From Thermodesulfovibrionia bacterium (lineage in GTDB: Bacteria; Nitrospirota; Thermodesulfovibrionia; UBA6902), in assembly GCA_945788685.1 (NCBI GenBank), contig CALZMZ010000001.1, positions 1 to 42,842 on the forward strand: a stretch of DNA of 42,842 nucleotides, read 5' to 3'. The notes under the pieces were generated by a model. That model had not been told where the DNA came from. It made no database searches and saw only the letters and a program-made list of their open reading frames with translations. A program made the position numbers and the translations under genes. Below, one piece after another: positions 26,352 to 42,658 of this stretch (within the stretch, counting starts at the first letter, position 1; every line of letters starts with the position of its first letter).

Positions 26352-27497
26352 TTGGAGACGCAAGAGGTCTTAACCAAATGTATCAGAAAGGATGTGTGGG
26401 GCTTAATATCTTTTTCTGCAAAGACAACACTGTTTCTGTCTGTATTCTGTTTACTTTTATTCTCTTCAATCAGCGTTGAAGCTGCGGACAATGAGAACTG
26501 CCTCATGTGTCACAAATACCGGCAGATCGGCCGGATTGATGAGGAAGGCAAAAAAAGAAGTTACTACGTGGATGAAAATATCTATGCCAATACAACGCAT
26601 AGAAATGTTCCCTGCAGAGACTGTCATACCTACATAACAAAACTTCCTCATGACCCTATAACGGAAGAGGTCAACTGTGCAAACGAATGTCACATCAAGC
26701 CACCATTTTCAAAAGAAAACTTTTCTCATAAGAAGATCATTGAGGTATATAATAACAGTGTTCACGGTATCAAAAAAGAGGACGCACCGGAATTAAAGAG
26801 TGCAAAACCGCATTGCAAATACTGTCATCTTAACCCTATTTTCACCAGAGTACAAGAGGAGAGAATAGCTTTTGACAAAACCCTCAGCCGTTGCCTGAAT
26901 TGCCATGAACAGAAAGGCGTAACGCAGGCCTACAAACATATAACGCACAGACTGCGGCATAAAACATCCCGTTCTCCGAAGGAAATTGTTAATTTGTGCT
27001 CAAAGAACTGTCACCAGGAAGTTGACCTGATGAAGACGTTAAAGGTCTCTCATGAAAGCCTTGAGGCTGTTGAAACATACTCTCAATCGGTACATGGTAA
27101 ATCAGTGGCGCTGGGTTCACAGGATGCGGCTGACTGTATCAGCTGCCATGCAACAAATGCAATTCATGATATTTATAAGAAAGATGATAAAAAATCATCT
27201 GTTCATGCTGAAAACCGCACAGAAACCTGCAGGCAGTGTCATACAAATGTGGGAGACCAGTTTGCAAATATTGATGTTCACTCAAAACTGGATCCTGAGA
27301 AAAAACCTGTTCTTTATTACATGAATACAGGCCTGACATTTGTGTTTTACGGGTCGGTATTGGGACTGGTCGGACTTATGCTGATCGAGACAGTCGGCAG
27401 AAGAAGAGATGGCATTAAGTGGCAGATACGACGCGGAACAACATGGCGTGGAATTTCAAAAATAAAGACAGATATAAAAAAAATATTAAACAAATAA
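26352..27497 (+). CDS. Membrane-anchored multiheme cytochrome c (6 CXXCH plus 2 CX3CH), bc module A
   Basis: CLMCH, CRDCH, CANECH, CKYCH, CLNCH, CSKNCH, CISCH, CRQCH; C-terminal TM. TTG/internal ATG start uncertain. Confidence 0.88.
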   Translation: METQEVLTKCIRKDVWGLISFSAKTTLFLSVFCLLLFSSISVEAADNENCLMCHKYRQIGRIDEEGKKRSYYVDENIYANTTHRNVPCRDCHTYITKLPHDPITEEVNCANECHIKPPFSKENFSHKKIIEVYNNSVHGIKKEDAPELKSAKPHCKYCHLNPIFTRVQEERIAFDKTLSRCLNCHEQKGVTQAYKHITHRLRHKTSRSPKEIVNLCSKNCHQEVDLMKTLKVSHESLEAVETYSQSVHGKSVALGSQDAADCISCHATNAIHDIYKKDDKKSSVHAENRTETCRQCHTNVGDQFANIDVHSKLDPEKKPVLYYMNTGLTFVFYGSVLGLVGLMLIETVGRRRDGIKWQIRRGTTWRGISKIKTDIKKILNK

Positions 27498-27522
27498 ATA
27501 CCTAATACAAGGGAGAAGATTT

Positions 27523-28425
27523 ATGTCAACACCTTCTGAAAACATTGCAACAACTTCCGAAGACGTTTCATCAGAAACAATGACCGACACATCTGAGGGA
27601 GTACAGGACGTAACTTATGTTGAGGGAGTAGGTAATATTCCAAGGGACATTTACAAACTTGTGAAATCCGATCCTCTGGGAGACATTCCGAGATACTCCT
27701 ATCATATAGTTATCCAGCATTTTCTCACGTTTATTACTTTTCTTGTGCTGGCTTCGACAGGTCTTACATTGCACTTCAGCGACCTCTGGTGGGCGCCATA
27801 CATGATTTCACTTTTTGGCGGAGCTGATACGGCCAGGTTCGTTCACAGGGCAGCAGCATTCTTAATGGTTGCTGCAAGTGTGTACCACCTGATTACAATA
27901 TTAGGAGGTACAATTGAAAAGGTCTCAAAGAAGCGATTTGACATCAGGAGAACACAGATACCAATACTAAAAGACCTTAAAGATATCGTACATGATATGA
28001 AATACTTCACGGGCAAGGAACATTATCGTCCCAAAATGGAAAAATTCATGTACAAACAGAAGCTCCATTATCTTGCAATTCTATGGGGAAGCTTTGTGTT
28101 GATCACTGCGGGCACGAGTCTGCTTTACCCTGAACTCATGTCTACTATTTGGCCGAATGCAGCATTCTTTCAGGACCTTGCAAGACTGATGCATGCTGAC
28201 GAGGCGATCATGGCAATTACGGTCATTGTCTTCTGGCATTGGTCCAATGTGCATCTGGTTCCCGGGAGGTTTCCCTTACAATGGTCTTTTCTTACCGGGA
28301 AAATTACCAGGGAGCACCAGATAGAAGAGCATTTCCTTGAGTACATAAGAAACCTTGAGGAAATCCCTGAGGAAAAAGAGTATATGAAAAAAGTATTAAA
28401 AGAAAACGGTTTTGAAACGAACTAA
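27523..28425 (+). CDS. Cytochrome b (b561/hydrogenase b-type-like) integral membrane subunit, bc module A
   Basis: Four TM-like segments with conserved His (YSYHIVIQHFLTF, FVHRAAAFLMVAASVYHL, FWHWSNVHL). Confidence 0.88.
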   Translation: MSTPSENIATTSEDVSSETMTDTSEGVQDVTYVEGVGNIPRDIYKLVKSDPLGDIPRYSYHIVIQHFLTFITFLVLASTGLTLHFSDLWWAPYMISLFGGADTARFVHRAAAFLMVAASVYHLITILGGTIEKVSKKRFDIRRTQIPILKDLKDIVHDMKYFTGKEHYRPKMEKFMYKQKLHYLAILWGSFVLITAGTSLLYPELMSTIWPNAAFFQDLARLMHADEAIMAITVIVFWHWSNVHLVPGRFPLQWSFLTGKITREHQIEEHFLEYIRNLEEIPEEKEYMKKVLKENGFETN

Positions 28426-28440
28426 GGGAGGTGGATTCAA

Positions 28441-29271
28441 GTGCCAGGCGAACCAAAAAGATTGGAACATCCTAAATCAGTTTATGTTATCGGTTTTATT
28501 TTTAAGATCATTACAATTGCGGTATTAATAGGGGTTACGTACCAGATTACATTTTCTCATCATGGACCGGGGCTTCTCATCCCGGTACAAAAGAAAATCG
28601 AAGCACAGCAGAAATCAGCTATTCTAGAGGAAGTAAAACGCCAGGAAGAATATGAAAAGCACAGGCACTTTCATAACATTGTTGATTTCCCTTCTTTGCC
28701 TGAGGCTTCCAGACCTGTCTGCTACATATGCCACTCTGATTATCCCCATAGTAAAAACAAAAAGGTAAGGGCTTTGTTAAATATGCATACCCAGTTCTTT
28801 GTCTGTGAGACGTGTCATATCGAGGAAATAAAAGACACTGATATTGTTTATAAGTGGTATAACCCTTTTAATGAAAATCCCTCAGGTCCTTTCTTTGGCA
28901 CGAGCTACAACCAGGATACGGGAAACCTGGCAGAAGTAGAAGACCAGTTCTCCAAGATTGCACCTTATTTCCGGTTCGGAGATAATCAGGACCTGGCCAT
29001 AAAAGCCCAGGACGCTCCTCTGGCAAAGGATTACATGAATGTAAGGGACCAGCTCACACCTGAACAGCGTGATAATGTTAAAAAGAAATTTCATGTCAAT
29101 ATCAAGGCAAAAGGACATGAATGCAAGGCATGTCATGCAAAAAAAGGGATTCTGGAATTCAAAAAGCTCGGCTTTGCTGTAAACAGAATTGTTGATCTTG
29201 AGCAGTTAAACATCAAGGGTATGGTAACCAAGTATGAAAAGTTTTACATACCGAAGCTCTTTTCTGACTAG
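28441..29271 (+). CDS. N-terminally anchored triheme cytochrome c, bc module A
   Basis: TM then CYICH, CETCH, CKACH; GTG start with GGGAGG RBS. Confidence 0.87.
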   Translation: MPGEPKRLEHPKSVYVIGFIFKIITIAVLIGVTYQITFSHHGPGLLIPVQKKIEAQQKSAILEEVKRQEEYEKHRHFHNIVDFPSLPEASRPVCYICHSDYPHSKNKKVRALLNMHTQFFVCETCHIEEIKDTDIVYKWYNPFNENPSGPFFGTSYNQDTGNLAEVEDQFSKIAPYFRFGDNQDLAIKAQDAPLAKDYMNVRDQLTPEQRDNVKKKFHVNIKAKGHECKACHAKKGILEFKKLGFAVNRIVDLEQLNIKGMVTKYEKFYIPKLFSD

Positions 29272-29281
29272 ACCCTGTTTT

Positions 29282-29316
29282 TCCTGCAGGGGATCATATT
29301 CCGGACCCCTGCAGGA
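29282..29316 (+). other. Intra-operon hairpin (11-bp perfect stem, 13-nt loop)
   Basis: TCCTGCAGGGG ... CCCCTGCAGGA, 10-45 nt after the triheme gene; no strong U-tract. Confidence 0.7.
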
Positions 29317-29356
29317 TTTGATTTAGAGATACTATTTCGATTATTATCACAGTGAA

Positions 29357-30271
29357 TTGCGAATCGTCTATATACAATTAATAATCCTCTATCTCCTCCT
29401 GGGAGTCCCTCTCAGTGCTTCTGCACTGGACTGCATTAATTCCACATTTCTCTTCGATATTAAAGGTAATATAAACCAGCCAAGTGATATTGCCATCGCA
29501 CCTGATGGAAATATCTATTTTGTAGACGGGGTACACCACAGGATAATTGTGGTCGGCAATGACGGAAGGTTCAAGTTTTCCTTTGGCAAAGAAGGGTCCG
29601 GTAAGGGAGATTTCATACGTCCCCTTGGAATTGATATCACTGAAGACAAGAAAGTTTTCATAGCTGACACAGGAAATCACAGGATACAGGTATTTGACCT
29701 GAAAGGTAATTTTCTGTATATGTTCACTGTTAAAAGCGGTCCCGGAGAAAGGCCCTCTGATCCGGTTGATGTACAGGCGTCGAAGATAAAAAATTACCTT
29801 TATATTTCAGACAACGATAATCATAAAATTAAGGTATATGACCAGAATGGTTCATATGCATTTGAATGGGGATCGTTCGGCGAAGAATATGGAGCATTCA
29901 GATATCCCGGAATTATCAGTATTAATGAATACCACGAAATATTCATAGTAGATGTGTTGAATACAAGAGTACAGAAATTTGATCCTTTTGGAAATTATAT
30001 TACTGATATAGGATCCTGGGGCGTTTTACAGGGCGAACTCTTCAGGCCAAAAGGGGTTGCCCTGGATAGTAAGAACAGAGTGTTTATCAGCGACAGCTAT
30101 ATGGGAGTTGTACAGGTTTTCACAGACCTTGGCAGGTATCTCGGCGTCATCTGCAAGGACAATTCATTATGGAAATTCAAATCTCCAGTGGGACTTGCAG
30201 TAGACAGGAACAGACTATTTGTTGTTGAGATGAGAGGTGATAAAATTACGGTTATAAAACTGATATTTTAA
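29357..30271 (+). CDS. NHL-repeat beta-propeller protein, bc module A
   Basis: Repeats IAPDGNIYFVDGVHHRIIVV, VFIADTGNHRIQVFDLKGNFL; signal peptide; TTG start. Confidence 0.88.
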   Translation: MRIVYIQLIILYLLLGVPLSASALDCINSTFLFDIKGNINQPSDIAIAPDGNIYFVDGVHHRIIVVGNDGRFKFSFGKEGSGKGDFIRPLGIDITEDKKVFIADTGNHRIQVFDLKGNFLYMFTVKSGPGERPSDPVDVQASKIKNYLYISDNDNHKIKVYDQNGSYAFEWGSFGEEYGAFRYPGIISINEYHEIFIVDVLNTRVQKFDPFGNYITDIGSWGVLQGELFRPKGVALDSKNRVFISDSYMGVVQVFTDLGRYLGVICKDNSLWKFKSPVGLAVDRNRLFVVEMRGDKITVIKLIF

Positions 30272-30301
30272 AATGAGAACGCTCAGTTTTATTTATGTGT
30301 A

Positions 30302-32587
30302 TTGATGACCGTAATTAAAGGTACTATGACCAGGACAAAGATTCTTATCTGTTTTTTTTCTATATTATCAGTTTTTCTTGCATCCTCCCGGGCCGGTGCG
30401 GTTGGAATGTCATCCAAGCGTGACTGTGTTGTCTGCCATATAATGTGGCTTGATTCATTCAGGACAGACAGGGAACCTCTCGTACCCTTTGAACCCGGGA
30501 ATGTATTGATGAAAGATACGCAGGGAATTGTGAGTTCTGAAGAAATATGCTACAGCTGCCATGACGGATATGTCATGGACTCAAGGCACATTACATGGGA
30601 CAAACACAGGCATCCGACGTTTGTAAAGCCTTCTGAAAACATCACGGTACCTCCTGAACTCCCGCTGAGCGTAAAAGGTGAAATTTACTGCGGCACCTGC
30701 CACTCTGCGCATGGTAAGGGGGCTGCTGCTCATGGCAATCCCATGGGAAGGACAAAAGTGTACAGGGAACTGAATGTAAACTCCAGTCTCTGCGAAAAAT
30801 GTCACAGCAAAGAGGCATCTTTCAAAATCTCCAACAGCCATCCTGTTCACTCCAACGCAATTGATCTCCCTGACAGGCTGTTTGAACTTGGCGCGGAAGA
30901 GGCCACGAGTAAAAATGAAGTCATCTGTCAGTCATGTCATAAAGTGCATGGAGCAGAAGCAGAAAAGATTTTAATTACCAGTAATAAAAATTCAGAACTC
31001 TGTGAATTATGTCATGAAAATCAGAAAAACATTATTAACACAAAACATGATCTCCGGATAACGTTACCGGAAGAAAAAAATATCAGGAATCAGACACTGT
31101 CAGAGGCAGGTCCCTGCAGTGCCTGTCACACACCTCACAACGCTTCAGATAAAAAGCTGTGGGCCCGCCCTGTTATGGAAGGCAATCCCGCATCTCAGTT
31201 ATGTCTTGGCTGTCACGGAGATCATACGGATTATAAAACAAAACGAATCGGCGAGCATTCTCATCCTATTGATGTACAAATCACACCTAAAGATGACCAG
31301 ACCATAAACCTTCCCCTGTTTGCTGATGATGGTTCAAAGCATGCTGACGGCAAGGTGCAGTGTTTTTCCTGTCATGATATACATAACTGGGACCCTATAG
31401 CTCATGAAAACACAGGGGGCAGGGAGGTTGAGGGAGATGCATCGAACAGTTTTCTGAGGATAACAAATACATCATCAACTCTCTGTTTTGAGTGCCATCA
31501 GGACAAGAAGCAGGTTGCAAAATCAGACCACAATCTTGCTGTTACCGCACCCGGGGAGCGAAACATCCACGGCTTTTTACCGGAAGTTTCCGGTCCCTGC
31601 GGTGTCTGTCACATACCTCACAATGCCATTGCAAAACCTTTATGGGCCAAGAAGCTGTCCGGATATGGAGACTATGTGTCACAGTTATGCAGTTCCTGTC
31701 ATGATAAAAATGCATCAGCAGGCAAGAAACTTACTGGAAAAAATTACCATCCCATTGATGTTTCTCTTGACAAGCTGGGTATTACCTCTTCACTTCCCTT
31801 ATATGACACTAAAGGATCAAGGACCATTGAAGGCAGAGTTTTCTGCACCACCTGTCATGATCCGCACATTTGGGACCCCAACAACGCAGAGACAGATTAC
31901 AAACATAAAAATATCGAAGGTGATACAACAAACAGTTTCCTCAGGCTGTCAAATTTTCCTTCATCTGACCTGTGCAAGTCCTGCCACAAAGAACAGGCTT
32001 ATGTTGACGGTACCGATCATGACTTGAACGTCACATCCCCTGATTCCAGGAACCTGCTGAATCAGACCGTAAAGGAATCAGGCCAATGCGGTGCATGTCA
32101 TCTTGTGCATAACAGTCCTAACAAGATAAAACTCTGGGCCAGGCCTTACGGGAGTGTTTACAGAAAAGAGGATATCATTGATTCATTATGCAACAGCTGC
32201 CACTCCAGGGGCAACCTGGCAGAAAATAAAATTCCCATGACGGCAATGCACCCCGAAGACAAACTGGTCAATAACACCATGCGCTGCGACAGGACAAAGA
32301 TTGATTTTGCCCCGATCTTTGACAAGATCACAGGCATTGAAACCAATGTTGGAAATATCTCCTGTCCTACCTGTCATGATGCCCACAGATGGAGTCCCCT
32401 TACAGAACAGAAGGGCGAGAATAAAAATATTGAAGGAAACACAACAAACAGTTTCCTCAGAAACGTAAGCTACAATAACATCTGCATAGACTGCCATGGT
32501 CTTGATGCTCTTTTCAGATATAAATATTTCCATGATCCTGATGAGAGAGTAGAGCCCCTTTCCCCTGTAATAACCATTAATAATTAG
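30302..32587 (+). CDS. 18-heme cytochrome c (doubled-CXXCH type), bc module A
   Basis: Signal peptide; 18 CXXCH counted; repeated IEGDTTNSFLR segments. Confidence 0.92.
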   Translation: MMTVIKGTMTRTKILICFFSILSVFLASSRAGAVGMSSKRDCVVCHIMWLDSFRTDREPLVPFEPGNVLMKDTQGIVSSEEICYSCHDGYVMDSRHITWDKHRHPTFVKPSENITVPPELPLSVKGEIYCGTCHSAHGKGAAAHGNPMGRTKVYRELNVNSSLCEKCHSKEASFKISNSHPVHSNAIDLPDRLFELGAEEATSKNEVICQSCHKVHGAEAEKILITSNKNSELCELCHENQKNIINTKHDLRITLPEEKNIRNQTLSEAGPCSACHTPHNASDKKLWARPVMEGNPASQLCLGCHGDHTDYKTKRIGEHSHPIDVQITPKDDQTINLPLFADDGSKHADGKVQCFSCHDIHNWDPIAHENTGGREVEGDASNSFLRITNTSSTLCFECHQDKKQVAKSDHNLAVTAPGERNIHGFLPEVSGPCGVCHIPHNAIAKPLWAKKLSGYGDYVSQLCSSCHDKNASAGKKLTGKNYHPIDVSLDKLGITSSLPLYDTKGSRTIEGRVFCTTCHDPHIWDPNNAETDYKHKNIEGDTTNSFLRLSNFPSSDLCKSCHKEQAYVDGTDHDLNVTSPDSRNLLNQTVKESGQCGACHLVHNSPNKIKLWARPYGSVYRKEDIIDSLCNSCHSRGNLAENKIPMTAMHPEDKLVNNTMRCDRTKIDFAPIFDKITGIETNVGNISCPTCHDAHRWSPLTEQKGENKNIEGNTTNSFLRNVSYNNICIDCHGLDALFRYKYFHDPDERVEPLSPVITINN

Positions 32588-32763
32588 ACCTTTTTTGCCA
32601 AATTAATACCTGTATTACAATTAATTATTTTACAGCTCACTGATTCTGTTGTATGTAGAAGGTATGGACATGATTTATTCATTCCGGGAAACAATTAAAT
32701 ATTAAATAACAAATAAACTGCCTTTATAAATGGGTGCAAGTCCAAAATAAGGGGGATAAAAAA

Positions 32764-33825
32764 ATGAAACGTGCAGGTCAGGTTTTTAGAAAAAATTTAA
32801 ATTTTATTATCGTTTTAATATGTGTCCTGTTATTTGCCTTCGCCTCATCTGTCTTCGCAGCTGACATCGGAAATTGTCTGCTGTGTCATAAGTACCCGGG
32901 CATAAGCAGGGTCGATGAAAACGGGGATCTGAAACTCTTTTATGTCAATGAAGATATCTTCAACAATAGTGTCCACGCGAAAGTTAACTGCGAAGGCTGC
33001 CATACAGATATAAAAAAGGTGCCTCATGATCCGGCCAAGAAAGTTGACTGTCTTATAGAGTGCCACATAATGGAACCTTCAACAGAAAAGAAATTTTCCC
33101 ACAAGGATGCTGATTTCTTTCTCGCAAACAGCGTACACAGTAAAAAAGAAAAAGATGGTAATCCCAAGAAGTTCGCTGAAGATATGCCCACATGTAAAGA
33201 CTGTCATGACAATCCGTTGTACAGGCCCCTCTCCTTTTTCAAAAAGGTGCGATATGGAGTTTCAGAAGCCTCCCTTGGAAGATGCAGGGTCTGCCATAAG
33301 AAGGATGAGTTCATTTACAGATTTTACAATCATGTAACAACCAGGCTGCATAAAAGCAGAAATCCCTTAAACATTGCTGAAGTATGTGCAAGGTGCCACA
33401 ATGACCCCGAGATCGTAGCAAGGCATAACCTTTCAACCAAGGCTGTTTATTCATACGGAGAAACATTTCATGGCAAGGCAGCAAGGTTTCTTGATGAACG
33501 GATCCCTGACTGCCTTGACTGTCATGTTAGACAGGGAGAATCAGTGCACCAGATGATGAGCCATGAAGATCCACTTTCATCTACATATAAGGACAACAGA
33601 AGCAATATCTGCACGAACATGGACTGCCACCCTTCGGCATCACCCAAATTCGCAACGTACTCGGTACACGCCGAATTCAACAAGACCCAGAGTCCTGTGC
33701 AGTATTACTTTACCTTTTTCTTTATAGTCCTGACCGGGGGCACGCTGCTTCCGTTAATGGGGATAATATTTCTTGACTGTATAAGACGGCTCTTTCCACA
33801 TGCCGTAATAAAGAGGAGGAAATAG
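32764..33825 (+). CDS. Membrane-anchored multiheme cytochrome c (6 CXXCH, 1 CX3CH, 1 CX4CH), bc module B
   Basis: CLLCH, CEGCH, CLIECH, CKDCH, CRVCH, CARCH, CLDCH, CTNMDCH; C-terminal TM; AAGGGGG RBS before ATG 32764. Confidence 0.88.
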   Translation: MKRAGQVFRKNLNFIIVLICVLLFAFASSVFAADIGNCLLCHKYPGISRVDENGDLKLFYVNEDIFNNSVHAKVNCEGCHTDIKKVPHDPAKKVDCLIECHIMEPSTEKKFSHKDADFFLANSVHSKKEKDGNPKKFAEDMPTCKDCHDNPLYRPLSFFKKVRYGVSEASLGRCRVCHKKDEFIYRFYNHVTTRLHKSRNPLNIAEVCARCHNDPEIVARHNLSTKAVYSYGETFHGKAARFLDERIPDCLDCHVRQGESVHQMMSHEDPLSSTYKDNRSNICTNMDCHPSASPKFATYSVHAEFNKTQSPVQYYFTFFFIVLTGGTLLPLMGIIFLDCIRRLFPHAVIKRRK

Positions 33826-33827
33826 TC

Positions 33828-34658
33828 ATGGAAAAAACTCCGGCCATCAAAATAAAAAACGGTACCAGGTATTTTTACAGATTTACGGTAAACCAGAGAA
33901 TACAGCATGTTATTCTTGCCTGGTCAGTTGTCACCCTTGTCCTGACAGGCATGCCCCTGAAGTTTCCTGATACATCATGGGCCCCCTATCTGTATTCACT
34001 GTTCGGAGGCATTCATGCAGCACCTGTTATACATAAAGTGTTCGGCGCCATACTTCTGGCACTGTTCGTATATCACATTGTCTATCTCGTATACGTCATA
34101 TATAAATATCAGGTGCTCCCTTTGAAACAAAAGGAGCGCCTGACAACAGGAAAAGTGCTTAAGCTGATAGCAAACCAGCCGCTCGTCCCTAACTTAAAAG
34201 ACGCCAAAGATATCAGGGACCTCATGAAATATCTTTTATATATGACAAGAAAAAGACCGGACGGCGCAAAATATACGTGGAAAGAAAAGTTTGATTACTG
34301 GGCCCCTTTCTGGGGTATGGTCATTATTGGTCTTTCAGGCCTGGTCATGTGGAACAAGGAGCTGGCAACCATGATATTCCCGGGAGAATTAATAAACTTC
34401 TCGTTGATCGCCCATAGTGACGAGGCCCTGCTTGCCGCCCTGTTTCTCTTTATCTGGCACTGGTACAATGCACATTTCTCAGAGGCTGTTTTTCCCATGG
34501 GTACGGCATTCATTACCGGATACCTTCCGGAAGCACTTATGGTCGAGGAGCATTATGAAGATTATGTTGAGATCATGACAAAGGCAGGACTGGCAGATGA
34601 AATACTTCCACCCCACGGCATGCATGCCGTGGCTTCAGAGGAAGGAGGTCAGGCATGA
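33828..34658 (+). CDS. Cytochrome b integral membrane subunit, bc module B
   Basis: Paralog of 27523..28425 (QRIQHVILAWSVVTLVLTGMPLKF, FIWHWYNAHF). Confidence 0.88.
   Translation: MEKTPAIKIKNGTRYFYRFTVNQRIQHVILAWSVVTLVLTGMPLKFPDTSWAPYLYSLFGGIHAAPVIHKVFGAILLALFVYHIVYLVYVIYKYQVLPLKQKERLTTGKVLKLIANQPLVPNLKDAKDIRDLMKYLLYMTRKRPDGAKYTWKEKFDYWAPFWGMVIIGLSGLVMWNKELATMIFPGELINFSLIAHSDEALLAALFLFIWHWYNAHFSEAVFPMGTAFITGYLPEALMVEEHYEDYVEIMTKAGLADEILPPHGMHAVASEEGGQA
34613..34632. repeat. 20-bp perfect palindrome CCACGGCATGCATGCCGTGG
   Basis: Direct reading; inside the 3' end of the module B cytochrome b gene. Confidence 0.95.
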
Positions 34659-35584
34659 AAAGTATGTTAATGAAAGTCTACATCCTGGGGTTTGCAGCAC
34701 TCTCGATATTCTTCATGATAATCATCTGGAAGGTAACATTCGCACATGTAATAGAGGAATCTCATGACCGGCAGGAAGTCCTTGAGGCCCTGCAGGCAGA
34801 CAAGGAAAAGGATGAAGCACCTGTTAAGACAACATTTCAGAAAATCATCCTTGACAGTGAACAGACAGTAAAACACTATCTCGGTTACAAGGTTCTGGAA
34901 GAAAAGAGGATAGAGGGCCACTTTCATCACATAGGCATAGATATCGGCCCTGACAAACGATCATATTGTGTTAATTGTCATGGTGACATGCCCCATGACC
35001 AGATCAAGGACCTGCGGGCATTTCTGAATATGCATGCCTTCTTTGTAAGCTGTCAGACCTGTCATGTAAAACTTGAAGGAAAAGAAAAGACAGGCGAGTT
35101 CAGGTGGTATGACAGGCGTACGGGAGTAATTATACCCAGCCCGGTGGCCTTTGAGGAACCCGGCACCTACAAGTCAAAGATCATCCCCTTTGAACGGGTA
35201 AACGGACAGCTTATCAGAATCGATTCAGATGAACGGATAAGTTTTGCCAGTGAGTTTCGGCAAAGCAAAGACACCCTTTCTGAAGCCCAGAGTTCAAAGG
35301 CAAAAAAGATCATCCATAAGATAGTCAGCAAACAGCCCCATTTATGTGAAGACTGTCATAACAGCAAGGACCCTGTTCTGCCTCTTGATAAGCTGGGATA
35401 TCCGAAAGAGCGAATTGACTCCATCCTGAGCACTGAAGTTGTGGGGCTCATCAAAAACTATACACAATTCTATATGCCGAGAATGCTCCATCCCGGAGAT
35501 AAAAGCGGACAGGAAAGAGAGCAGAACCGCAAAAAAAACTTAAAAAAAAATAAGAAACCATTAACTATAACAAAAATTAATTGA
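34655..35584 (+). CDS. N-terminally anchored triheme cytochrome c, bc module B
   Basis: TM then CVNCH, CQTCH, CEDCH; ATGA overlap with the upstream gene. Confidence 0.87.
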   Translation: MKSMLMKVYILGFAALSIFFMIIIWKVTFAHVIEESHDRQEVLEALQADKEKDEAPVKTTFQKIILDSEQTVKHYLGYKVLEEKRIEGHFHHIGIDIGPDKRSYCVNCHGDMPHDQIKDLRAFLNMHAFFVSCQTCHVKLEGKEKTGEFRWYDRRTGVIIPSPVAFEEPGTYKSKIIPFERVNGQLIRIDSDERISFASEFRQSKDTLSEAQSSKAKKIIHKIVSKQPHLCEDCHNSKDPVLPLDKLGYPKERIDSILSTEVVGLIKNYTQFYMPRMLHPGDKSGQEREQNRKKNLKKNKKPLTITKIN

Positions 35585-35636
35585 TTGACCGGAAAACCGG
35601 TTCTATTAACTGTCATGGAATGCCCCATGGATATTC

Positions 35637-36614
35637 ATGCGGCGTTCCCATTATCATGCGATGAAAATGAAAAAACTTTTAGATAGGCCGGGTAATATAT
35701 CGATTATTATTTTTGCAGTTATAAGTATACTCCTTTATTACAGCGGGCATGCCTCTGGAATTGATTTCACCTACATACAACACCTTTATGACATAACATT
35801 TGACATGAACGAGCCAAGCGATGTGGCTGTTTCGGGGAGTGGCCAAATCTACATCGTTGATGGTGTCAACAACAGGGTGGTTGTGAGCAACAAAAAAGGT
35901 AAGGTCATCTTTGCCTTTGGAGAAAAAGGTTCAGGCATGGGTCAAATGCTTTATCCGCTCGGCATTTTTGTTGACAGCACCGGAAATGTTTATCTTGCTG
36001 ATTCAGGAAACCACAGGATACAGATCTTTGACCCCTTTGGTGAGTTTCAATCAGAAATTAAAATCCCTTCAGTTAAAGGTGTTCTTGCCGACCCTACCGA
36101 CATTACTGTTGATGAGTCAAGAAACAGAATCTACATTGTAGACAATAACAACCATCATATCCTTGTGTATGACCTTGATACACTGAAACTGCTTGATACC
36201 TATGGCACCCCTGGCATGGGAAAAAGGCAGTTCCGTTATCCCTTCCTGATTTCAGCTGATAAAGCCAACTATCTTTATATTGTTGATGTCATAAATACCC
36301 GTGTGCAGGTCCTCAACCCTGATGGAAAGTTTGTGCAATATATAGGTGGATGGGGTGTTGAAAAAGGTGAATTTTTCAGGCCCAAGGGTGTTGCCGTGGA
36401 CAGAAGTAACAGGGTGTTTGTCAGTGACGGGTATATGGGAGTCATTCAGGTATTTAAAACAAATGGTGAGTTTGATTCCGTCATAAGCATTGCTGATAAA
36501 TCCAGAATCAAGAAGTTTAACAAACCTGTCGGCATTTTCATTGATAACAATAACAGGCTCTATGTGGTTGAGATGTTTGCCAACCGTGTGGGTGTCTATG
36601 ATATTTTTTATTAA
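35637..36614 (+). CDS. NHL-repeat beta-propeller protein, bc module B
   Basis: Repeats VYLADSGNHRIQIFDPFGEF, YIVDVINTRVQVLNPDGKF; paralog of 29357..30271. Confidence 0.88.
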   Translation: MRRSHYHAMKMKKLLDRPGNISIIIFAVISILLYYSGHASGIDFTYIQHLYDITFDMNEPSDVAVSGSGQIYIVDGVNNRVVVSNKKGKVIFAFGEKGSGMGQMLYPLGIFVDSTGNVYLADSGNHRIQIFDPFGEFQSEIKIPSVKGVLADPTDITVDESRNRIYIVDNNNHHILVYDLDTLKLLDTYGTPGMGKRQFRYPFLISADKANYLYIVDVINTRVQVLNPDGKFVQYIGGWGVEKGEFFRPKGVAVDRSNRVFVSDGYMGVIQVFKTNGEFDSVISIADKSRIKKFNKPVGIFIDNNNRLYVVEMFANRVGVYDIFY

Positions 36615-36617
36615 ATC

Positions 36618-39092
36618 ATGATTAATAAAATTTTTCTGGTATCATTGATCCTGTGTTCAATAATTCCGGCATCTGCATCATTCGCCCTGGTTGAAACTCC
36701 AAGGAATCCTGATTCTGCAAAAGAGTGCGCCATTTGTCACTACAGATGGATAGATACCTTTTATCTGGATGGTAAAGGCTCAGACCTTGTACCATACCAG
36801 CAGGAAAAGGTCGTGGCTAGACTGGAAATGTGCTTTACCTGCCATGACGGCAGTGTTGTCGATTCACGGGCAAGAGTCTATAACGACAAACATCATAATA
36901 CAGACAAGCCGCCGCCTCCCCATATGAAAATACCCGATATTTTTCCTCTCGATGAAAACGGAGTGATGCAGTGCGCCACCTGTCATACTGCCCATGGCGT
37001 ACCAAGCGAGATGGGGATTGAGAAAACGATTTTTATCAGGGCATCAAACAATAACTCTGAGATGTGCATAATGTGCCATACAGATAAGGAAGGAAGCATT
37101 TCAAACGGCAACCACCCTGTCGGACCGGCAGAAAAAGAGATCCCGCTGAACCTGATCAGTCATGGATCACGTGTAGGGGATAAAAAGAACCATATCATAT
37201 GTGAAACCTGTCACACGGTTCATGGTTCACCCAATGAGAGTTTTCTTATAGAGAGCGCGAGAAATTCGGGTCTGTGTCTTGAGTGCCATGCTGATAAGAA
37301 TGTCTTTGATGCTGATGGCAAGAGAAACCACCAGCATGTGGTCAATGTTAAGCCGGTTAATGTCAAAATACCTGAAGAGGTCATTGATAAGGGAGCTAAG
37401 ATCGGCTGGGAGGGAGAGATAATATGTCAGACGTGCCACAAGGTGCACAATAACAATATCGAAAAAACACTTCTTTTAATTATGAAAGATGAGAAGTCAT
37501 CACTGTGCCTGACCTGCCATAAGGACAAGAACTACCTTGCCGATACCAAGCATAACCTGGTCCACTTAGCGCCCAAAGAGAAAAACCTTGAAGGAAAGAC
37601 AGTTGCTGAAGCCGGAATATGCTCACCCTGTCACCTGCCGCATAAAGAAGCAAGAACATCGGGTGAAGGGGAGGACTTTATAACACGTCTCTGTCTGAGC
37701 TGTCATAAAAAAGGGAATATTGCTGAAAAGGCGGTGCCTGTTGATTACAGGCATCCTCTTGGCATAAGTCCTTTTAATAATGGAAGTGATACTCAACTGA
37801 ACCTGGCGACTCCGGACATTGATGAAGACACATTCACCCTTCCGCTGTTTAATAAATACGGGATACAGGACCATGACGGTAATGTGACATGCACGACATG
37901 TCATGATCCGCACAGGTGGAGACCTGATTCAGAAAAGGGCGAGATCAGGGAGGATATAAAAGGGGACAGTTTCAGCTCCTTTCTCAGAAAGACCGCACCT
38001 GATATATGTAAAGAGTGCCACAGTAATAAATTTTTCATTGAGAATTCAAAGCATGATATAGCAAAGGTTGCCCCTGAAGAAAAAAACTCCCTTGACCAGA
38101 CACCATCAGAGTCAGGTCTCTGTGGAGTTTGCCATCTTGTCCATGGCGGACAGCAGGGATATCTCTGGGCCAGAAAAACAGTATCTGAAAGCGGCAATAT
38201 AGTGCAGGACCTCTGTACAGGATGTCACAATGAACAGGGAATGGCAAAGGAAAAGATCATAAAGGACTATTCCCATCCTGTAAACATATCTCTCACTGAA
38301 TCAGGCCTGACCACCACCCTTCCCCTGTTTGATAAGAAAGGACATCTGGCTGATAACGGCTTAATGACCTGTGAGACCTGCCATGATCCGCACAAATGGT
38401 CACCAGATAATACCGCAACCGGGGAACATTTCAAGGTTGAGGGTACAATAAGTAACAGTTTTCTCAGAACAGCAAACTTTCCCTCTCCAGGATTATGCGG
38501 AGACTGTCACAAGGATGAATCCTATATTGAAAAGACCGACCATGACATGATGATATCCGAATCATATGGACTGAAAGTTGCTGAATCAGGAACATGCGGT
38601 GTGTGCCATAATGTCCATAACAGCAAGAACAAGACCCGGCTATGGGCGCTGGACTTTGCTGACGGTGCATCCATGATGGACAAAATGTGCAACTACTGTC
38701 ATTCCGGAAACGGCTCGGCAAAAGACAAAATTCCGGATATTGCCTCCCATCCTGATGATCAACTGATAAACAATATTGGCCGGGACATCAAGCATACACC
38801 CAACTATTTCCCGCTGTATAATGACAGATCAGGTGAGTATCTGTCTGTAGGAAATATCTCATGCCCCTCCTGTCATAATGTGCACCAGTGGGACCCCAAG
38901 TTCAAGAAAATTGGGCCGGGAACAAATATTGAAGGTAATGCAACAAACAGTTTCTTAAGGATGCAGACATACAGCCTTTTATGCATTGACTGTCATGGTC
39001 TTGATGCCCTGTTCAGGTTTAAATACTATCATGATGTTGAGGAGAGAGTTGAGAAGATTACCAATATAATAGTCCCGGATACATTTCAGTAA
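36618..39092 (+). CDS. 20-heme cytochrome c (doubled-CXXCH type), bc module B
   Basis: 20 CXXCH counted; same terminal ATNSFLRMQTYSLLCIDCHGLDALFRFKYYHD as the module A paralog. Confidence 0.92.
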   Translation: MINKIFLVSLILCSIIPASASFALVETPRNPDSAKECAICHYRWIDTFYLDGKGSDLVPYQQEKVVARLEMCFTCHDGSVVDSRARVYNDKHHNTDKPPPPHMKIPDIFPLDENGVMQCATCHTAHGVPSEMGIEKTIFIRASNNNSEMCIMCHTDKEGSISNGNHPVGPAEKEIPLNLISHGSRVGDKKNHIICETCHTVHGSPNESFLIESARNSGLCLECHADKNVFDADGKRNHQHVVNVKPVNVKIPEEVIDKGAKIGWEGEIICQTCHKVHNNNIEKTLLLIMKDEKSSLCLTCHKDKNYLADTKHNLVHLAPKEKNLEGKTVAEAGICSPCHLPHKEARTSGEGEDFITRLCLSCHKKGNIAEKAVPVDYRHPLGISPFNNGSDTQLNLATPDIDEDTFTLPLFNKYGIQDHDGNVTCTTCHDPHRWRPDSEKGEIREDIKGDSFSSFLRKTAPDICKECHSNKFFIENSKHDIAKVAPEEKNSLDQTPSESGLCGVCHLVHGGQQGYLWARKTVSESGNIVQDLCTGCHNEQGMAKEKIIKDYSHPVNISLTESGLTTTLPLFDKKGHLADNGLMTCETCHDPHKWSPDNTATGEHFKVEGTISNSFLRTANFPSPGLCGDCHKDESYIEKTDHDMMISESYGLKVAESGTCGVCHNVHNSKNKTRLWALDFADGASMMDKMCNYCHSGNGSAKDKIPDIASHPDDQLINNIGRDIKHTPNYFPLYNDRSGEYLSVGNISCPSCHNVHQWDPKFKKIGPGTNIEGNATNSFLRMQTYSLLCIDCHGLDALFRFKYYHDVEERVEKITNIIVPDTFQ

Positions 39093-41097: not shown

Positions 41098-41424
41098 ATG
41101 GCAGAAGCAAAGGGATTGAGTAAACCGGTAAAGATGAAAAATGATCTCGCAGAGTTTCTGGGAGCTGCAGAACTTCCCAGGACAGAGATTACAAAAAAAC
41201 TCTGGGACTATATTAAAGCGAATAAACTTCAGACAAAGACTGAAAATGGAAAGCCTGAGAACGCGGGCAAATTTATTGTGGCTGATGCTAAATTGCTCCC
41301 GATCTTTAAAAACACAAAATCCACAAGTAAATCAGGCAAGGTCACTGACCTTACTCATATGAAGGAAGGCCAGACGATCAACATGATGCAGATGGCCTCT
41401 GTTGTCGGCGCTAACATAGAATAA
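41098..41424 (+). CDS. SWIB/MDM2-domain protein
   Basis: LAEFLGAAELPRTEITKKLWDYIKANKLQ...IVADAKLLPIF matches the SWIB pattern; GGAGGA RBS. Confidence 0.88.
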   Translation: MAEAKGLSKPVKMKNDLAEFLGAAELPRTEITKKLWDYIKANKLQTKTENGKPENAGKFIVADAKLLPIFKNTKSTSKSGKVTDLTHMKEGQTINMMQMASVVGANIE

Positions 41425-41481
41425 GCTGAATCATTCCCCGGGATCAGTTCCCGTTAAAGAGGAAATCAGATTTATTGAATA

Positions 41482-41597
41482 ACTGTTCCAACCGCTTGAA
41501 CAGTTCCAGCCGCTTGAGCCGTTTAACTGTTCAAGCAGTTCGAGCAGATCAAGCGATTGGAACTTTTTTGTTGAACTGTTCAAGCGGTTGAAACAGT
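41482..41597. repeat. Degenerate CAAGCGGTT-type inverted/direct repeat cluster
   Basis: ACTGTTCCAACCGCTTGAACAGTTC (41482-41506) and GAACTGTTCAAGCGGTTGAAACAGT (41573-41597) are inverted copies with one mismatch; further partial copies between. Confidence 0.85.
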
Positions 41598-41710
41598 ATT
41601 TCCCATCCTGTTTTATCAACATAAATATTGTGGTAGAATGAAGTGATGGCTTAAGTCCCCTTTTTCAGGGTATGAGATAAAAAATTATATGCATTTGAAA
41701 GAACAGAGCT

Positions 41711-42658
41711 ATGGGTAAGAAAAAGAAACGCAAGGCGGCTTCTCAGAAGAAACAGGTGGCAGCAAAAGAAAAACCTGTTCAGGAACAACCGGTAGATCAA
41801 AAAAAGAAAAAGAAGAAAAAACAGCCGGTGCTGAAGATGATGGAAAAGCCCAACTGGCTTCTTACAGGACTGGCAGCAGCAGGTATGATACTGACTGCTT
41901 ATCTTGCTGTAACCGGCTGGCTGGATAAAGCACCTGTCCTTTGTGACGATGGGAGCTCATGCGACATTGTTCAGCAGAGCAGATGGGGGACTTTTCTGGG
42001 CATTCCCACTGCTCTCCTGGGTTTTCTAACGTATGCTGTTCTTGGATATGTCGGTTTCCGGATCCGCAATCCCGGGACTCACTGGAAATCAGCATGGACA
42101 GTCTCAATGATTGGTCTGGGCTACAGTATATATCTGATAGTCATTTCAATGGTCGTGATACAGGCAGCCTGCGTCTACTGCATAGCTTCGTTTACTATCA
42201 TGACCATCATCTTTGGGGTAATAACGTTCCAGCGCCCAAAGGAACTGCCAAAATTCAATTTTACTTCCTTCGCAGGTCAGACTGTAATCATAACAGCGGT
42301 AATCGTGGGGGGAATGCATCTGCACTACAGCGGTGTTTTCGATCCAATGGCCGGGCCTGAAGACCCCTTTCTCAGGGGACTGGCCGATCATCTTACACTG
42401 GATCAGGCCATTATGTATGGAGCATACTGGTGACCTGCATGCGTGGAACAGAAGGATCTGTTCGGGGCATCAGCTGAAAGATTTCCCTATGTAGAGTGTT
42501 CTCCTCAGGGCCGCGGAGGACCAAAGGCATCTGTATGCATACGGGAAAAAATCAAATCCTATCCTACATGGATCATAAAGGGCAAAACTTATCTGGGAAT
42601 ACTCGAGCCAGACCGGCTTGCTACCCTTTCAGGATATGTACATGAGGGAAACAGGTAA
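41711..42658 (+). CDS. VKOR-thioredoxin fusion with in-frame TGA at 42431-42433, candidate selenoprotein (315 aa if read through)
   Basis: VKOR motifs CDDGSSCDIV and CVYC; then MYGAYW-[TGA]-PACVEQKDLFGASAERFPYVECSP...SYPTWIIKGKTYLG in one uninterrupted frame. Confidence 0.82.
42439..42470 (+). promoter_or_regulatory. Bacterial SECIS-like hairpin candidate
   Basis: GAACAGA-AGGA-TCTGTTC (42446-42463) on an ATGC/GCAT lower stem (42439-42442/42467-42470), starting 5 nt after the TGA. Confidence 0.7.

Follow-up and report, generated by a model that had tools for sequence, protein, structure and literature searches.

A predicted selenocysteine-containing VKOR-thioredoxin fusion in a group of uncultured Nitrospirota

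The question raised by this locus is whether a TGA codon lying within a gene for a VKOR-thioredoxin fusion ends the protein or is read as selenocysteine (Sec). The window, meaning the whole stretch of 42,842 nucleotides that was analysed, carries this complete gene, a predicted VKOR-thioredoxin fusion selenoprotein, on the plus strand (41711..42658). The frame comprises 316 codons including the TAA stop at 42656-42658, and its sole in-frame interruption is a TGA at codon 241 (42431..42433, plus strand). The read-through product has 315 residues with Sec at position 241, and the junction reads MYGAYW-U-PAC-VEQKDLFG. The original prediction had taken the two ORF pieces for a single frame split by one TGA, and both its coordinates and its junction were exact. 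A six-frame scan of the 42.8 kb window for open frames interrupted by TGA, with at least 90 codons before and at least 45 after it, returned three frames; the two others were antisense to longer ORFs, so that the VKOR-thioredoxin frame was the only sense one in the window. No match was obtained in an Rfam search of the window at the gathering cut-offs.

Several other features of the window were recorded. A stand-alone SWIB/MDM2-domain protein is encoded just upstream of the gene (41098-41424), and the upstream intergenic region (41460-41610) contains several imperfect direct and inverted repeats resembling CAAGCGGTTGAACAGTT. Between 7754 and 39092, multihaem cytochrome c genes are densely clustered, together with genes for proteins with beta-propeller-like repeats and for cytochrome b-like membrane proteins; within this cluster, 26352-32587 and 32734-39092 look like two related sets.

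The protein consists of two domains. The VKOR domain (PF07884), with its membrane helices, covers residues 49-170 (41855..42220, plus strand; hmmscan E 1.5e-23; 83.9 bits against a cut-off of 27.5), and the thioredoxin-like domain covers residues 219-313 (42365..42649, plus strand), as assigned by phmmer to 3kp8 (E 1.3e-29) and by Foldseek. In phmmer, residues 45-313 aligned to the Synechococcus VKOR-thioredoxin fusion (4nv2/3kp9) with an E-value of about 1e-46. Alignment equated the loop cysteines C78 and C84 (41942..41962, plus strand) with C50/C56 of Synechococcus VKOR, and the quinone-proximal CxxC, C154 and C157 (42170..42181, plus strand), with C130/C133; both pairs were invariant. The predicted Sec codon corresponds to the first of the two catalytic residues in the thioredoxin UxxC. 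The phmmer alignment set U-P-A-C against the catalytic C-P-H-C of the Synechococcus protein, placing the TGA on the first catalytic Cys codon as had been proposed; the thioredoxin CxxC position is retained as UxxC, whose second Cys does not vary. Across the 12 aligned sequences (A1), C78, C84, C154, C157, position 241, C244, C263 and C276 were all invariant, and the two-domain architecture was common to all homologues in the Sec clade.

The AlphaFold2 prediction, whose mean pLDDT was 72 with low values over the lysine-rich first 44 residues, contained helices at 49-70, 91-116, 121-150 and 155-173, and another at 184-206 after the VKOR domain. Its best structural matches were the Synechococcus structures (3kp8/4nv2), with a TM of 0.95 and an rmsd of 1.2 A for the thioredoxin domain against 3kp8 (Foldseek) and a whole-chain TM of about 0.5, at which the modelled placement of the domains relative to each other cannot be relied on.

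The TGA was found at exactly the position of codon 241 in 19 of the 19 distinct clade members, this gene counted. Among 60 genomes searched, namely the window's own and relatives, 15 carried the gene in 16 copies (56-100% identity), each with exactly one TGA at the same codon and with no other stop or frameshift in any relative. One of these is a second copy in the window's own assembly (L175, G000:C128, 4256-5194, minus strand), which is 84% identical, contains the TGA and adjoins a FeoB gene. This copy may represent a paralogue, or its contig may belong to a related strain. Further TGA forms were detected in a named genome collection, in another Nitrospiraceae MAG and on a Desulfobulbaceae and a deltaproteobacterial MAG contig (L067, L075). 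The grouping of L067 beside the window's genus suggests either transfer or misbinning of the contig.

More distant homologues carry cysteine at this position. TGT or TGC was present wherever the motif was readable in homologues from Gammaproteobacteria, Acidobacteriota, Binatota, Cyanobacteriota, Armatimonadota and Dehalococcoidia. In 396 genomes of the phylum, the TGA form was present in 12, and a stop-free form of 43-49% identity in 25, every one from family f32; the codon at the motif was TGC or TGT in 17 of 17 readable f32 cases, and one more (L150) did not match the motif pattern. A VKOR domain also lies inside an open frame of 530 residues, with a different architecture, in a further family of the order (G039:C11:3154-3537). 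The alternation between TGA and TGC/TGT among relatives that had been proposed as a check was found, and the pattern by which bacterial selenoproteins are recognised, an in-frame UGA conserved in orthologues and aligned to Cys elsewhere, was present. Maximum-likelihood tree building placed the 20 Sec rows, which represent 19 distinct sequences, in a single group (support 100/100) among the Cys rows, so that one Cys-to-Sec change is enough to account for them.

The region 3' of the TGA, described as intact in the original prediction, was examined in relatives for decayed frames; instead, the frame was intact and under constraint. Between the window and its closest relative (G001), dN was 0.078 and dS 0.795 after the TGA and hairpin, and dN 0.082 and dS 0.877 before. 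With dN and dS about equal on the two sides of the TGA, the C-terminal domain is maintained as protein.

A putative bacterial SECIS element was located at 42439..42470 (plus strand), 19 nt after the UGA. Its predicted fold comprises a lower stem AUGC/GCAU, an upper stem GAACAGA/UCUGUUC of 7 bp (42446-42463, plus strand) and an apical loop AGGA (42453-42456, plus strand). The published bacterial rules for such elements (PMC13188914) were satisfied by 19/19 genes, against 10-19% of codon-shuffled controls encoding the same protein. All 19 hairpins, which are not independent because the genes are related, had 7 bp, a loop of AGGA, AGUC or AGGC, a spacing of 19 nt and energies of -10.0 to -19.7 kcal/mol. 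Folding energy was modestly below that of codon-shuffled controls (mean z -1.24), single-sequence energy being weak evidence, and the argument for the hairpin was based on synonymous constraint in preference to it. Codon identity at same-residue pairs was 0.906 in the 13-codon segment starting 3 codons after the TGA, compared with 0.46-0.48 elsewhere; this segment, in which codons +3 to +13 are nearly frozen at synonymous sites, ranked top of 315. Synonymous difference was 0.24 in the hairpin and about 0.65 on both sides. In the covariation check the upper stem was paired in 100% of cells, and no compensatory base changes were found across the aligned Sec genes; with the upper stem almost invariant, covariation gives no support either way.

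A host that inserts Sec was expected to possess selA, selB, selC (tRNA-Sec) and selD. This held for selA (617 bits), selB (326 bits, cut off by a contig end) and selD (322 bits), the last of which is itself a Sec form with its own in-frame TGA (GGUAAK). No tRNA-Sec was detected in the host assembly (84% complete, with selB running into the contig end), but 9 of 17 relatives had one scoring above the Rfam threshold (50-74 bits), adjoining selB in some. Sub-threshold matches to tRNA-Sec in the host corresponded to ordinary Ser, Leu, Trp, Arg and His tRNAs. In the closest relative, which belongs to the same genus, the first 53 nt of tRNA-Sec are readable at 94% identity, and a run of N follows (L143, 1501-1653). 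selA was present in every Sec-form genome tested and in none of the 15 Cys-form f32 genomes tested.

Other readings of the codon were weighed against these results. If the UGA were a true stop, the product would be a shortened VKOR lacking a functional thioredoxin domain, and what follows the codon would be a remnant or a small protein starting from the GTG at 42443. ORF calling does divide the gene at the TGA, and this GTG does lie four codons after it. Termination is nevertheless very improbable, because purifying selection is as strong after the TGA as before, the downstream part is intact in all relatives with no further stop or frameshift, the frozen synonymous sites just past the TGA would be left unexplained, and a protein initiated at the GTG would miss both UxxC residues. 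Decoding of the UGA as another residue, by near-cognate insertion of Trp or Cys or under a changed code, has a precedent in bacteria that read UGA as Trp or Gly. Here, however, UGA serves as the final stop of the VKOR-thioredoxin gene in most relatives, the host possesses selA, selB and a Sec-type selD, the hairpin is a signal of the SelB type, and the residue replaced is always the catalytic Cys, which makes this reading equally improbable. A sequencing or assembly error at 42431-42433, which the original prediction had recognised as fatal to it, could be imagined since the window's assembly is a draft in 192 contigs; recurrence of the TGA at this position in numerous independent genomes, and also in the second copy within the window's assembly, ruled it out and leaves it a negligible probability.

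The gene product is thus very probably a selenoprotein in which UGA 241 is read as Sec, and the conserved TGA/Cys alternation, the hairpin, the selection after the TGA and the Sec machinery together upheld the original prediction. Judged from sequence comparison, Sec is almost certainly inserted at position 241. The overall explanation, of a VKOR-thioredoxin in which UGA 241 would be read as Sec by means of SelB, tRNA-Sec and the hairpin and which would make disulfides as the Synechococcus enzyme does, is considered highly likely.

Synechococcus VKOR promotes disulfide formation in exported proteins and passes the electrons to quinone. By analogy, after SelB and tRNA-Sec, guided by the hairpin 19 nt beyond UGA 241, had decoded this codon as Sec, the thioredoxin domain on the periplasmic side would use U241-x-x-C244 to exchange electrons with exported proteins. 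The loop cysteines C78/C84 would then hand the electrons to C154/C157 within the membrane, from which they would reach quinone, and the outcome would be disulfide bonds made in exported proteins. At its exposed nucleophilic position, Sec would form a selenenylsulfide with C244, and would be expected to speed thiol exchange and to resist over-oxidation. We infer the topology, the direction of electron flow and the kinetic benefit of Sec. The disulfide-forming direction is likely. The Sec protein might instead mainly reduce or isomerise disulfides, for example by keeping CXXCH haem motifs reduced in cytochrome-rich cells: the apo-forms of multihaem cytochrome c need reduced cysteines, and multihaem cytochrome c genes crowd the window. 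This alternative is unlikely, since conservation of both cysteine pairs in the VKOR domain argues for oxidation linked to quinone and there was no conserved link to cytochrome maturation genes. Nor did any conserved neighbour gene tie the VKOR-thioredoxin gene to a pathway, the neighbourhood not being conserved beyond closely related genomes.

Compared with known systems, the predicted Sec protein is close in design to the Synechococcus fusion (3kp9, 4nv2, 4nv5, 4nv6), sharing its two-domain architecture and all electron-relay cysteines, with 53% identity and the TM given above over the thioredoxin domain; they differ in the first catalytic residue of that domain, which is Cys in the Synechococcus protein and predicted to be Sec here. 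The Cys-form VKOR-thioredoxins of f32, Binatota, Acidobacteriota and Cyanobacteriota are alike over both domains (28-49% identical) and in the YGA(Y/F)WCxxC region, but have a TGC/TGT codon, do not share the hairpin and, in the f32 genomes tested, occur without selA. The Rhodanese/DsbD fusion-like selenoprotein TsoB (NF045694) is likewise a redox fusion selenoprotein, although with other domains and with two Sec residues in a UxxxxU motif. Sec is also the first residue of a thioredoxin-fold UxxC in the DsbA-like, DsbG-like and thioredoxin selenoproteins, but these are listed without a VKOR domain (PMC13188914, table), whereas here Sec would lie within a quinone-coupled membrane enzyme.

The inventory of May 2026, with 119 prokaryotic selenoprotein families or subfamilies, contains no VKOR entry (PMC13188914), which bears out the doubt in the original prediction that a Sec VKOR-thioredoxin is an established family. 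NCBIfam of June 2026 gave only general VKOR models, below their cut-offs, and full-text searches joining VKOR and selenoproteins yielded ferroptosis reviews and other unrelated papers. One study is said to have screened more than 44,000 groundwater MAGs for selenoprotein candidates, and a VKOR entry in its supplementary list is therefore possible. The gene is judged to represent a selenoprotein family that is new but derived from a known enzyme, and that belongs to one group of uncultured Nitrospirota. The family is probably unreported, and would probably be the first quinone-linked, membrane-embedded, disulfide-generating enzyme with a catalytic Sec, arising from a single Cys-to-Sec change in an ancestor of the Nitrospirota group and kept since.

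Standard ORF calling splits such genes in two, as the VKOR-thioredoxin case illustrates. Most UxxC selenoproteins in the catalogues are thioredoxin-fold proteins that stand alone; the present gene would place selenium in a membrane enzyme coupling disulfide formation to the quinone pool, and such a membrane selenoenzyme would occur in organisms rich in CXXCH cytochromes. As Sec and Cys forms exist naturally in one phylum and track the Sec machinery, they would offer matched pairs for testing why a disulfide-exchange enzyme uses selenium.
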